From contig NZ_MRCE01000011.1 in the NCBI RefSeq assembly GCF_001904725.1, forward strand, positions 124,001-188,000: a stretch of 64,000 bases of DNA, in the 5' to 3' direction. The DNA comes from Phormidium ambiguum IAM M-71. Its GTDB lineage: Bacteria; Cyanobacteriota; Cyanobacteriia; Cyanobacteriales; Aerosakkonemataceae. Both the position numbers and the translations under genes were made by a program. The stretch's first letter is position 1, and every line of letters starts with the position of its first letter. Under the pieces are notes generated by a model. That model was not told where the DNA came from. It searched no databases and worked only from the letters and a program-made list of their open reading frames with translations. Positions 3,659 through 19,228 of the stretch are shown here, in pieces.

Positions 3659-3784
3659 AGGACTTACGCCGCCAATCAGAGGTGTAGGGGCAGGTTTTGT
3701 TGATGAATAAGGAATTTCAGAGATTATCTGATTTCAAAACCCGCCCCTACAATCCTTGATTTTTCGTTTTTTTGCGTAAGTCCT
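3659..3784. repeat. Nested inverted repeat (MITE-like, 126 bp)
   Basis: The outer arms AGGACTTACGC (3659-3669) and GCGTAAGTCCT (3774-3784) are perfect complements. Inside them are GTAGGGGCAGGTTTTG (3684-3699) and CAAAACCCGCCCCTAC (3735-3750), complementary with one mismatch. Related inner arms recur at 10795 and 18711. The element lies between convergent genes and may also stop transcription. Confidence 0.8.
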
Positions 3785-10777: not shown

Positions 10778-10902
10778 TCAGGGCAGGTTTAGCTGTAGGG
10801 GCGGGTTTTGTTGAAAGATTATCTGTGGGAAACACAAGGATATCTGTTAAACCCGCCCCTACTATACCTAGTCATAAGATTGAAATCAAAACCTGCCCTT
10901 GA
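10778..10902. repeat. Nested inverted repeat (MITE-like, 125 bp)
   Basis: The outer arms TCAGGGCAGGTTT (10778-10790) and AAACCTGCCCTTGA (10889-10902) are nearly perfect complements. The inner arms GTAGGGGCGGGTTT (10795-10808) and AAACCCGCCCCTAC (10849-10862) are perfect complements. The total length is almost equal to the element at 3659-3784, with different outer arms. Confidence 0.8.
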
Positions 10903-17223: not shown

Positions 17224-18654
17224 TTACGACAATGATTCTTTATTAATTGGTAAGCAAATAGTAAAAGTTGCGCCTTTTCCGGGATAACTGCTAGCAGTAA
17301 TAGTACCGTTATGTGCTTCGACAATTCGTTTGGCGATCGCTAAACCTAGACCTGTACCATTACCGGAACGAGAGCGATCGGCTGTATAAAACTGCTCAAA
17401 AATATGTGGCATATCAATAGGACTAATACCTGGGCCTTGATCGGTAATTTTTATGATAATTTTGTGAAATTCGATGTAGCCAGTAATCCGCACTTCCGAG
17501 TTAGCGGCTGAATATTTAAGCGCATTATCTAAAATGTTTAAAAACGCTTGTAAAAGTCTTTCTGGATCGCCATTTACTTTGGCTTCTGGTAAATCTAATT
17601 TAATTCCTACACTACCAGATTGTAATCGTGTTTCTACTGCCCTAACTGCGCGTTCGATCAGAGATTTTAGGCGAAAATCTTTTTTCTCTAATTGAGTAAC
17701 GCCTGCTTCTAATCTGCCTAAATCTAACAAATCATGAATTAACCGAGATAAACGTTTCACCTCTTCTTGTGCAGTACCAAGAAAGCGATCGCGTATTTCC
17801 GGTTCTTCATCTGCGCCACTGGCTAACGCTTCTAAAGTCACAAAAACATTACTGACCGGAGTTCGCAACTCATGAGAAACATTAGCTAAAAAAGACCGTC
17901 TTTCGCTATCCAACGAAGCCAATCTTTCGCTCATGCGATTTAATTCAAAAGCTAATTGACCTAATTCATCATCTTGCCGAATGGTTAATTTATCTCCAAA
18001 ATTCCCTCCACCCATTCGCACGGCAAAATTGCACATTGATTGAATTGGTCTAGCCATACTGCGAGTCAAATATTCACTAATCACCGCACAAAGTAGGACT
18101 GTGATTATTAATGAAAATAAAACTGATAAAATAAGTTTTTGAAACTGACGCTGAAACTGTTCAAGCGTAATTGACATTCGCAGTACGCCTAATAAGCGAC
18201 CATTGCGAATTATAGGTTTAGAAGCATATAAGCGATCGTCATTAGATAAAAGACCTCTGGCTTTACCTTGAACAGCCTGTCTTTGCAGAGCTTCTTTAAC
18301 TCCGGGAACTTCTAACCAATTAGTTATTTGCTTATCAATATCCGGCGCAGAAGTTGTTAATAATCGACCTTGAGGATCGAAAATTCTTAGAGTAACTGCA
18401 TCTGGTGAACCATAACGTTTTACAATTATGTCTACTCTTTCTACATTATTATTTTCTAATGAATCGGCTACGCTTTCACTTAAAGCCGAAGTCCAAGCAT
18501 CTAAATCTGCTTGCCTGGTTTTCATAAAATAATCATGAAAAGATAACAGAATATAACTAGCTAAAACTGATGTACCTAAAGCGGTAAGTGCTAAATAAGT
18601 AGTGAATAATTTAGTATGAATTGAATTCCATTTAATCCGTTTAATGTAAAGAAT
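17224..18654 (-). CDS. Sensor histidine kinase; likely non-AUG start
   Basis: The first in-frame ATG is at 18525 (433 residues), but coding similarity clearly continues upstream: KLFTTYLALTALGTSVLASY is a membrane helix that kinases of this group normally have. The frame runs back to a TAG at 18658-18660. A perfect Shine-Dalgarno AGGAGGTGA (18662-18670) stands just before it, and the only start-like codon in range is ATT at 18652-18654. Domains in order: helix 1, an extracytoplasmic region, helix 2 (LILSVLFSLIITVLLCAVIS), HAMP, HisKA (His in VSHELRTPV; residue 218 from the ATG, 261 from ATT) and HATPase with complete N, G1 and G2 boxes. It is paired with the regulator at 18782. Confidence 0.8.
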   Translation of the reverse strand: MLYIKRIKWNSIHTKLFTTYLALTALGTSVLASYILLSFHDYFMKTRQADLDAWTSALSESVADSLENNNVERVDIIVKRYGSPDAVTLRIFDPQGRLLTTSAPDIDKQITNWLEVPGVKEALQRQAVQGKARGLLSNDDRLYASKPIIRNGRLLGVLRMSITLEQFQRQFQKLILSVLFSLIITVLLCAVISEYLTRSMARPIQSMCNFAVRMGGGNFGDKLTIRQDDELGQLAFELNRMSERLASLDSERRSFLANVSHELRTPVSNVFVTLEALASGADEEPEIRDRFLGTAQEEVKRLSRLIHDLLDLGRLEAGVTQLEKKDFRLKSLIERAVRAVETRLQSGSVGIKLDLPEAKVNGDPERLLQAFLNILDNALKYSAANSEVRITGYIEFHKIIIKITDQGPGISPIDMPHIFEQFYTADRSRSGNGTGLGLAIAKRIVEAHNGTITASSYPGKGATFTICLPINKESLS

Positions 18655-18661
18655 TAGCTAT

Positions 18662-18670
18662 TCACCTCCT
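18662..18670 (-). promoter_or_regulatory. Strong Shine-Dalgarno AGGAGGTGA before a non-AUG start
   Basis: A perfect anti-16S match sits 7 nt before CTA and 10 nt before ATT (18652-18654), with no ATG, GTG or TTG in frame until 18525. It argues that translation of the kinase starts here, or did before a start-codon mutation. Confidence 0.6.
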
Positions 18671-18710
18671 AGATTTTGGTAACTGGGGAACAAGGGGAAT
18701 TTAAAACTCT

Positions 18711-18777
18711 GTAGGGGCGGGTTTAGCAGACAATCTCTGAATTTCACAAACAATCTCTAGACAAAACCCGCCCCTAC
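18711..18777. repeat. GTAGGGGCGGGTTT hairpin between regulator and kinase
   Basis: The arms GTAGGGGCGGGTTT (18711-18724) and AAACCCGCCCCTAC (18764-18777) are perfect complements around a 39-nt loop. It is the same inner repeat as at 3684 and 10795. It begins four bases beyond the stop codon of the truncated response regulator. Confidence 0.85.
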
Positions 18778-18781
18778 AAAC

Positions 18782-19228
18782 TCAAAACTTTCTGATTTGT
18801 TCCTCTGCATTTGTGTTTCCCTGTTCCCCTGCTATTGAGTTAGCATCTCCTTTTTTTTCATCTGTCCGACGGCGCAGAACAGCTTTAATTCTGGCTAGTA
18901 ATTCACGAGTGCTAAATGGTTTAGTAATGTAATCGTCTGCACCTGCTTCTAAACCCCAAATTTTTTCAATATCCTGGTCTTTAGCTGTGAGCATAACTAT
19001 GGGAATATCGGAAAATGCTCTGAGTCGCCAGCAGACTTCCATACCATCTATTCCAGGTAGCATTAGGTCTAACAAAATAATATCCGGTACTTGTTTGTGA
19101 AACTGTTTGATGGCACTCATGCCATCTCCAGCTGTTGTCACTATATAACCTTCTTTTTGTAAGGTGTAAGTGAGACTTTCCCGCAAAGCTTCTTCGTCGT
19201 CAACTAATAATATGTGTGGCATGAGCAA
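18782..19228 (-). CDS. OmpR-type response regulator lacking its DNA-binding domain
   Basis: The 148-residue protein has a complete receiver: D10-D11, phospho-acceptor D54 (LLDLMLPG), T in MLTAK, KPF lysine, and the linker ELLARIKAVLRRR that normally leads into a winged-helix domain. Instead of that domain there is a 25-residue polar tail (DANSIAGEQGNTNAEEQ) and a stop, directly followed by the hairpin repeat at 18711-18777. Relatives with this linker are about 230-250 residues. The output domain has evidently been lost, so it cannot bind DNA as a normal OmpR protein does. It may still accept phosphate from the downstream kinase. The start could be Met3. Confidence 0.85.
   Translation of the reverse strand: MLMPHILLVDDEEALRESLTYTLQKEGYIVTTAGDGMSAIKQFHKQVPDIILLDLMLPGIDGMEVCWRLRAFSDIPIVMLTAKDQDIEKIWGLEAGADDYITKPFSTRELLARIKAVLRRRTDEKKGDANSIAGEQGNTNAEEQIRKF

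Follow-up and report, generated by a model that had tools for sequence, protein, structure and literature searches.

Translation starts at AUU are described as very rare; in E. coli they are confined to two genes, namely infC and pcnB, and the AUU start of infC is discriminated against by IF3 (PMC9410913). Both genes share their start codon with the one that we propose here for a cyanobacterial sensor kinase, although neither encodes a sensor kinase. That strong Shine-Dalgarno (SD) pairing can sustain a weak start is established. In S. aureus, cvfC1 (AUU) and ccpN (AUA) have conserved non-canonical starts with an extended SD sequence, from which reporters in poor medium were expressed at about 10% of what AUG gave (PMC13009471). 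The likeness lies in a non-canonical start beside a strong or extended SD sequence, in other genes and in another phylum. However, the S. aureus starts were shown by Ribo-Ret and luciferase, whereas the kinase start is proposed here from sequence; furthermore, the S. aureus start is conserved, whereas that of the kinase is scattered over several lineages and is not family-wide. In Yersinia pestis, the phosphorelay protein RcsD-Hpt is started at an AUU with a predicted ribosome binding site (PMC10191623), but this is an internal start in a frameshifted gene and yields a small Hpt protein, in contrast to the full-length kinase considered here. Two further reports, in the portions available, name AUU in general terms only (PMC13339759; PMC9845219). 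Among the papers listed by a literature search on AUU or ATT starts in cyanobacteria or in kinases, there was no cyanobacterial kinase case.

The window, by which we mean the whole stretch of 64,000 nt that was analysed, lies on contig C11 of a 7.4 Mb genome (G000) assembled as a 90-contig draft. Its minus strand carries, in this order, a receiver gene, a palindrome, a Shine-Dalgarno sequence and a histidine kinase frame, near frames that we take to be Hlip-like and FtsH. Our reading, to which we give a probability of roughly 0.75, is that this is an ordinary receiver/kinase pair in which a strong SD sequence would rescue AUU initiation of the kinase, here and in several lineages. The anomaly is real and is mostly explained as a rare but precedented start that recurs in one gene family. 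The relevant features of the window are:

17224 to 18654, minus strand: sensor histidine kinase, 476 aa counted from the ATT (Pfam, 12-row alignment)
18532 to 18615, minus strand: likely first membrane helix (roughly residues 14-41), ahead of Met44 (hydropathy, conservation)
18652 to 18654, minus strand: putative AUU start of the kinase, with AGGAGG 10 nt upstream (orthologue comparison)
18658 to 18661, minus strand: ATAG, which by eye lines up with codon -7 of the congeneric kinase L010, its ATG start
18662 to 18670, minus strand: strong, perfect Shine-Dalgarno sequence AGGAGGTGA (sequence inspection, duplex energy)
18711 to 18777, no strand: dispersed perfect palindrome of 67 nt, GTAGGGGCGGGTTT...AAACCCGCCCCTAC (exact arms at 18711-18724 and 18764-18777)
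18782 to 19222, minus strand: stand-alone OmpR/PhoB-type receiver, 146 aa (Pfam, residue conservation, NCBIfam)
18785 to 18865, minus strand: residues 120-146 of the receiver protein, its C-terminal tail (length against relatives)

The kinase consists of a hydrophobic N-terminal segment, a sensor region, and HAMP, HisKA and HATPase_c domains, the last three above the Pfam cut-off; the sensor region gives a weak dCache match (25.5 bits against a cut-off of 45), and the H-box (SHELRTP) and the ATP-binding residues are invariant in the 12-row alignment. Its frame is open from 18657 to 17224, with no ATG, GTG or TTG before Met44 (18523-18525), the first in-frame ATG. As the initial annotation had noted, the part of the frame before that ATG encodes a hydrophobic segment, probably a membrane helix: within residues 10-43, hydropathy averaged over 19 residues peaks at 1.8 in the window, and the peak ranges from 1.17 to 2.16 (median 1.67) in the 72 tree rows. 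The perfect SD sequence ahead of the kinase had likewise been recognized correctly, with ATT as the only plausible start before residue 44; its duplex with the 16S tail, upstream of the ATT, has a computed energy of -16.1 kcal/mol for an assumed tail sequence. A gene finder limited to ATG, GTG and TTG would cut the kinase at an internal codon, losing the first membrane helix of the sensor.

To place this start among its relatives, we compared orthologous loci. With the kinase as query, matches at E <= 1e-60 were obtained in 48 of the 388 genomes sampled from the order and in 29 of the 388 sampled from the class, the two samples overlapping, and a contig scan of named records gave 80 loci, from which the six that were cyanobacterial by title were added. 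The named loci encoding close kinase relatives include those of Nostoc, Fischerella, Scytonema and Nodosilinea, which, together with the Hlip-like and FtsH frames, suggest that the window is cyanobacterial. From the total of 81 loci, L028 and L145 (without the N-terminus) and L054, L056 and L169 (duplicate contigs) were dropped to leave 76 rows, and 75 were scored for the start codon, L144 being N-masked at the kinase start. Kept among the scored rows were L029, with a broken frame, and the second copies L172 and L173, all three with an upstream ATG or GTG. Codon numbering is relative to an invariant Asn codon, which is N10 in the kinase of the window.

An ATG or GTG is present in codons -25 to -1 in 64 of the 75 scored rows, at -9 or -10 in 38 of these 64, and only in L133 among them is it directly preceded by AGGAG or GGAGG. 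The N-terminus lacks both codons in 11 of 75 rows, ten of which carry an in-frame ATT with AGGAG 9-11 nt upstream, an arrangement found in 0 of the 64 ATG/GTG rows even at 7-12 nt (Fisher p 1.3e-11 for SD-ATT against absence of ATG/GTG, with phylogeny ignored). This zero hinges on the 12-nt limit, since the nearest miss, L132, with an ATG at -16, has AGGAG 13 nt before an ATT and so falls just beyond the counted range. The eleventh row, L019, has neither ATG/GTG nor SD-ATT, and a TTG in it overlaps the TGA of the receiver. The ten SD-ATT rows are the window (L009), L014/L015 and L017/L018, which belong to one family (f12) and two genera, L023-L025 from one genus (g25), L030 and L039. The window is the sole row of its genus among the ten, and the nine others come from other genera. 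On the kinase tree the four f12 rows cluster together (SH-aLRT 96), as do the three g25 rows (100), and at least four changes of state are required for nine SD-ATT rows, with L039 left out. The ATG form would appear to be older than the SD-ATT form because it is widely spread among relatives, a judgement from distribution and not from a rooted reconstruction.

The spacing of 9-11 nt is itself normal. In a background sample of 444 kb from three genomes, with 292 long frames, putative SD-ATG starts were seen in 27 frames, and in 14 of these 27 the gap between GGAG and ATG was 8-12 nt. AGGAG lies 4-12 nt before an early in-frame ATT in seven of the 292 frames; five of the seven have an early ATG or GTG, and the remaining two are this very kinase, in the window and in G047 (where a TTG is present). 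Predicted local folds leave the SD sequence partly unpaired (0.21-0.66), and consistent SD occlusion was not seen in the local RNA folding.

We propose that translation of the kinase would begin at the in-frame AUU, 9-11 nt downstream of AGGAG, where strong pairing with the 16S tail would keep the 30S subunit in place despite poor reading of the AUU by the initiator tRNA. With so firm a hold and so poor a reading, the full-length membrane kinase would be made at a low rate, and this rate of synthesis should be IF3-sensitive. In several lineages the SD sequence occupies the place of the relatives' ATG, and the AUU matches an internal Ile codon of the relatives, left as a near-cognate start. Read in frame and by eye from codon -10 onward, L041 has ATG GGT TTG TTA CCA ATT, L017 has AGG AGC TGG TTA GCA ATT, L039 has AGG AGT TAG TTG CCA ATT and L023 has AGG AGG TGA GTT ACC ATT. 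The history of the window appears to differ from that of the other lineages, with a one-base difference, ATAG against the ATG of L010, and its ATT stands at codon -9 as against -5 in the other SD-ATT lineages. The sequences show the arrangement itself, its recurrence, its link with the absence of ATG/GTG and purifying selection on the segment ahead of the internal ATG; that ribosomes do initiate at the AUU, that dosage is low and depends on IF3, and which way the change went are what we infer.

Recurrent SD-plus-AUU in one gene family offers a natural test of how SD strength offsets a weak start, and of whether such compensation is neutral or regulatory. The regulatory version, in which a weak AUU start would have been selected repeatedly, conversion of the AUG region to an SD sequence with a shift of initiation to an Ile codon downstream being a recurrent route, tying kinase dosage to IF3 or the translation state and making the kinase-to-receiver ratio a readout of growth, seems to us unlikely, though by no means far-fetched.

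A decidedly unlikely explanation for the missing ATG of the window is an assembly error of one base, or else a recent loss as the gene turns into a pseudogene, with separate cases in the other lineages. The congeneric L010 has an ATG at codon -7 where the window reads ATAG, a one-base difference that removes the ATG in the window relative to L010; the assembly is in 90 contigs; and the window's ATT is at -9 where the others' is at -5. However, the ATG of L010 stands behind the weaker AGGAAGTAG, whereas the window has the perfect AGGAGGTGA and 12 extra bases downstream, and the greater strength of the SD sequence in the window fits compensation. The kinase frame is intact, with 31 synonymous and 11 non-synonymous changes assigned to the window's own branch after the internal ATG, and nine other genomes have SD-ATT. 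The initial annotation had left it that the kinase either uses its ATT or has lost its start codon. Use of the AUU is favoured by the nine other SD-ATT orthologues and by the conserved segment, and loss of the start persists as the rival just described.

Initiation at some other non-AUG codon near the SD sequence (UUG, UUA, GUU or AUA, at -7 or -8), and not at AUU, has a slight chance. L039 has a TTG at codon -7, 4 nt after AAGGAG, which is the best placed TTG among the SD-ATT rows and may be its start. In L014/L015 a TTG falls at codon -8, inside the SD sequence, and in L017/L018 one falls at -14 without an SD sequence, both being badly placed. Five SD-ATT rows (L009, L023, L024, L025 and L030) have no TTG either, and in L023-L025 and L030 there is no ATG, GTG or TTG between the stop codon and the invariant Asn. 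Against a shared alternative start, codon -7 varies, being TTG in L039, GTT in L023-L025, TTA in L017, L018 and L030, and ATA in L014 and L015, and it lies 3-5 nt from the SD core, whereas an ATT 9-11 nt after AGGAG is common to all ten rows.

We reject translation from the internal ATG (Met44), with the frame upstream untranslated, as barely tenable: although Met44 is the first in-frame ATG in the window, no AGGAG precedes it in the sequence inspected, and the segment upstream is conserved, hydrophobic in 72 rows and under purifying selection. In that segment, L014 and L017, both without ATG/GTG and from two genera, differ by 19 synonymous and three non-synonymous changes, and L017/L018 by seven and one. 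The pairs among L023, L024 and L025 show two to three synonymous changes and L014/L015 one, with no non-synonymous changes in either set, small counts that say little on their own. For L009/L010 the figures are 7.5 and 2.5, counted over the 12-nt length difference, and on the window's own branch two synonymous changes and no non-synonymous ones could be assigned in the segment. There are TTG codons within the segment in L014/L015 and L023-L025, but they lie within or past the hydrophobic stretch. The counts point to purifying selection in this segment, an indirect sign that it is translated. For the group they weigh strongly against initiation at the internal Met, and they support the AUU itself indirectly.

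The likely start of the receiver protein is the ATG at 19222 and not the TTG at 19228 that the open-reading-frame list gives, and its stop codon is at 18782-18784. Pfam sees Response_reg alone (PF00072, E 2.5e-32; no second family at E 0.001), with no winged helix at the C-terminus, which bears out what had been said of this protein from its sequence, and in the 25 NCBIfam models shown the matches are confined to the receiver part. Residues D8, D9, D52, T79 and K101 are kept in the window and are invariant across 75 receiver rows (three of them duplicate contigs). Judged by its domains and residues, the protein is a single-domain response regulator, a receiver alone with its phosphorylation residues retained. 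Stand-alone receivers are known, of the Spo0F, DivK and CheY kind. Like these, the window's protein has no output domain, and here it stands beside a kinase, but its sequence differs in being OmpR/PhoB-type (Pfam, NCBIfam).

A receiver gene is found upstream of the kinase in 74 of the 76 rows, the exceptions being L010 (contig end) and L152 (a different long frame there). Two of the 74 receivers stand apart: L144, N-masked with an apparent length of 182 aa, and L172, a second copy truncated to 110 aa. In all 72 fully readable loci, the window included, the partner is receiver-only, and at 118-146 aa it is too short for a winged helix; the spacing between receiver and kinase in these rows is -23 to 264 nt. 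Thus, receiver-only is the usual state of the family in this sample, and by this comparison the short partner is normal for the family and is not a broken regulator. The congeneric genome G001 gave no receiver match at E <= 1e-40, and its kinase sits at a contig end, so that receiver loss and an assembly gap are indistinguishable there. As far as the short flanks reach (at least 600 nt before the receiver in 74 of 79 rows), the end of ftsH was found in four of the 79 and the Hlip gene in the window alone.

The proposal that an insertion or deletion at the repeat had removed the winged-helix domain of the regulator, suggested by the palindrome 4 nt past the stop codon and by a receiver tail longer than that of relatives, has virtually no chance and is rejected, as alignment with orthologous loci gave a full regulator in 0 of the 72 fully readable partners and the short receiver is shared by orthologues without the palindrome, which occurs between receiver and kinase in the window alone (74 rows with a receiver, up to two mismatches). 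The initial annotation had set against itself the case of orthologues with the same short regulator, a kinase started at the internal ATG and no conserved membrane helix; of these, the short regulator is indeed found in the orthologues, but conservation and purifying selection extend to the part of the frame ahead of the internal ATG.

The hairpin itself, four bases beyond the receiver stop, is as described, with exact reverse-complement arms found at 18711-18777. With up to two mismatches allowed, the palindrome word is found six times in the window, as the arms of three palindromes, where 0.17 occurrences would be expected. The three GTAGGGGCGGGTTT copies in the window are at 3684-3750 (one mismatch), 10795-10862 and 18711-18777. 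Across the genome, both arms are perfect at eight places, with 20-50 nt between them and variable centres. A literature search on the palindrome sequence found no paper. At 146 aa, no receiver protein among the 72 is longer than that of the window, the remaining 71 having 118-135 aa, and its extra tail and stop codon probably derive from intergenic sequence flanking the repeat, because the palindrome copy L033 has a similar AGTTTTGAGTT flank; by eye, this flank is common to the copies L032 and L033.

Separately, we considered whether AUU for infC is a general habit of these genomes, and rejected it: 0 of 30 IF3 loci of these cyanobacteria show an in-frame ATT with AGGAG 7-12 nt upstream, and of the 30, 16 have ATG, 12 GTG only and two neither (for one of these, L203, the identity as infC is uncertain). 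Three IF3 N-domain matches fall in the window's genome (L187 and two more, on contigs C34, C6 and C5). One match is seen, with relatedness ignored, in nine of the ten genomes with an SD-ATT kinase and in eight of the 20 others searched. The infC genes of L180, L181, L184, L188-L190, L192 and L197-L200 have ACG, CTG, ATA or ACA at the position of the relatives' ATG (codon -14 or nearby). With this non-ATG codon and a GTG two codons further on, these cyanobacteria do not seem to have a settled infC start.

Two further loci deserve mention. L172 (G565:C2:217000-221000) is a second, decaying receiver/kinase copy in which the receiver is truncated and the kinase has stops, and between the two lies a frame that we take to be transposase-like. 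In G030 the kinase is interrupted, at the end of L030 (contig C49) and the start of L028 (contig C64); the insert begins with GTGCGAC and ends with a domain-V-like hairpin followed by AC, which would make it a putative group II intron. By eye, exact splicing of this insert would restore an open kinase frame.
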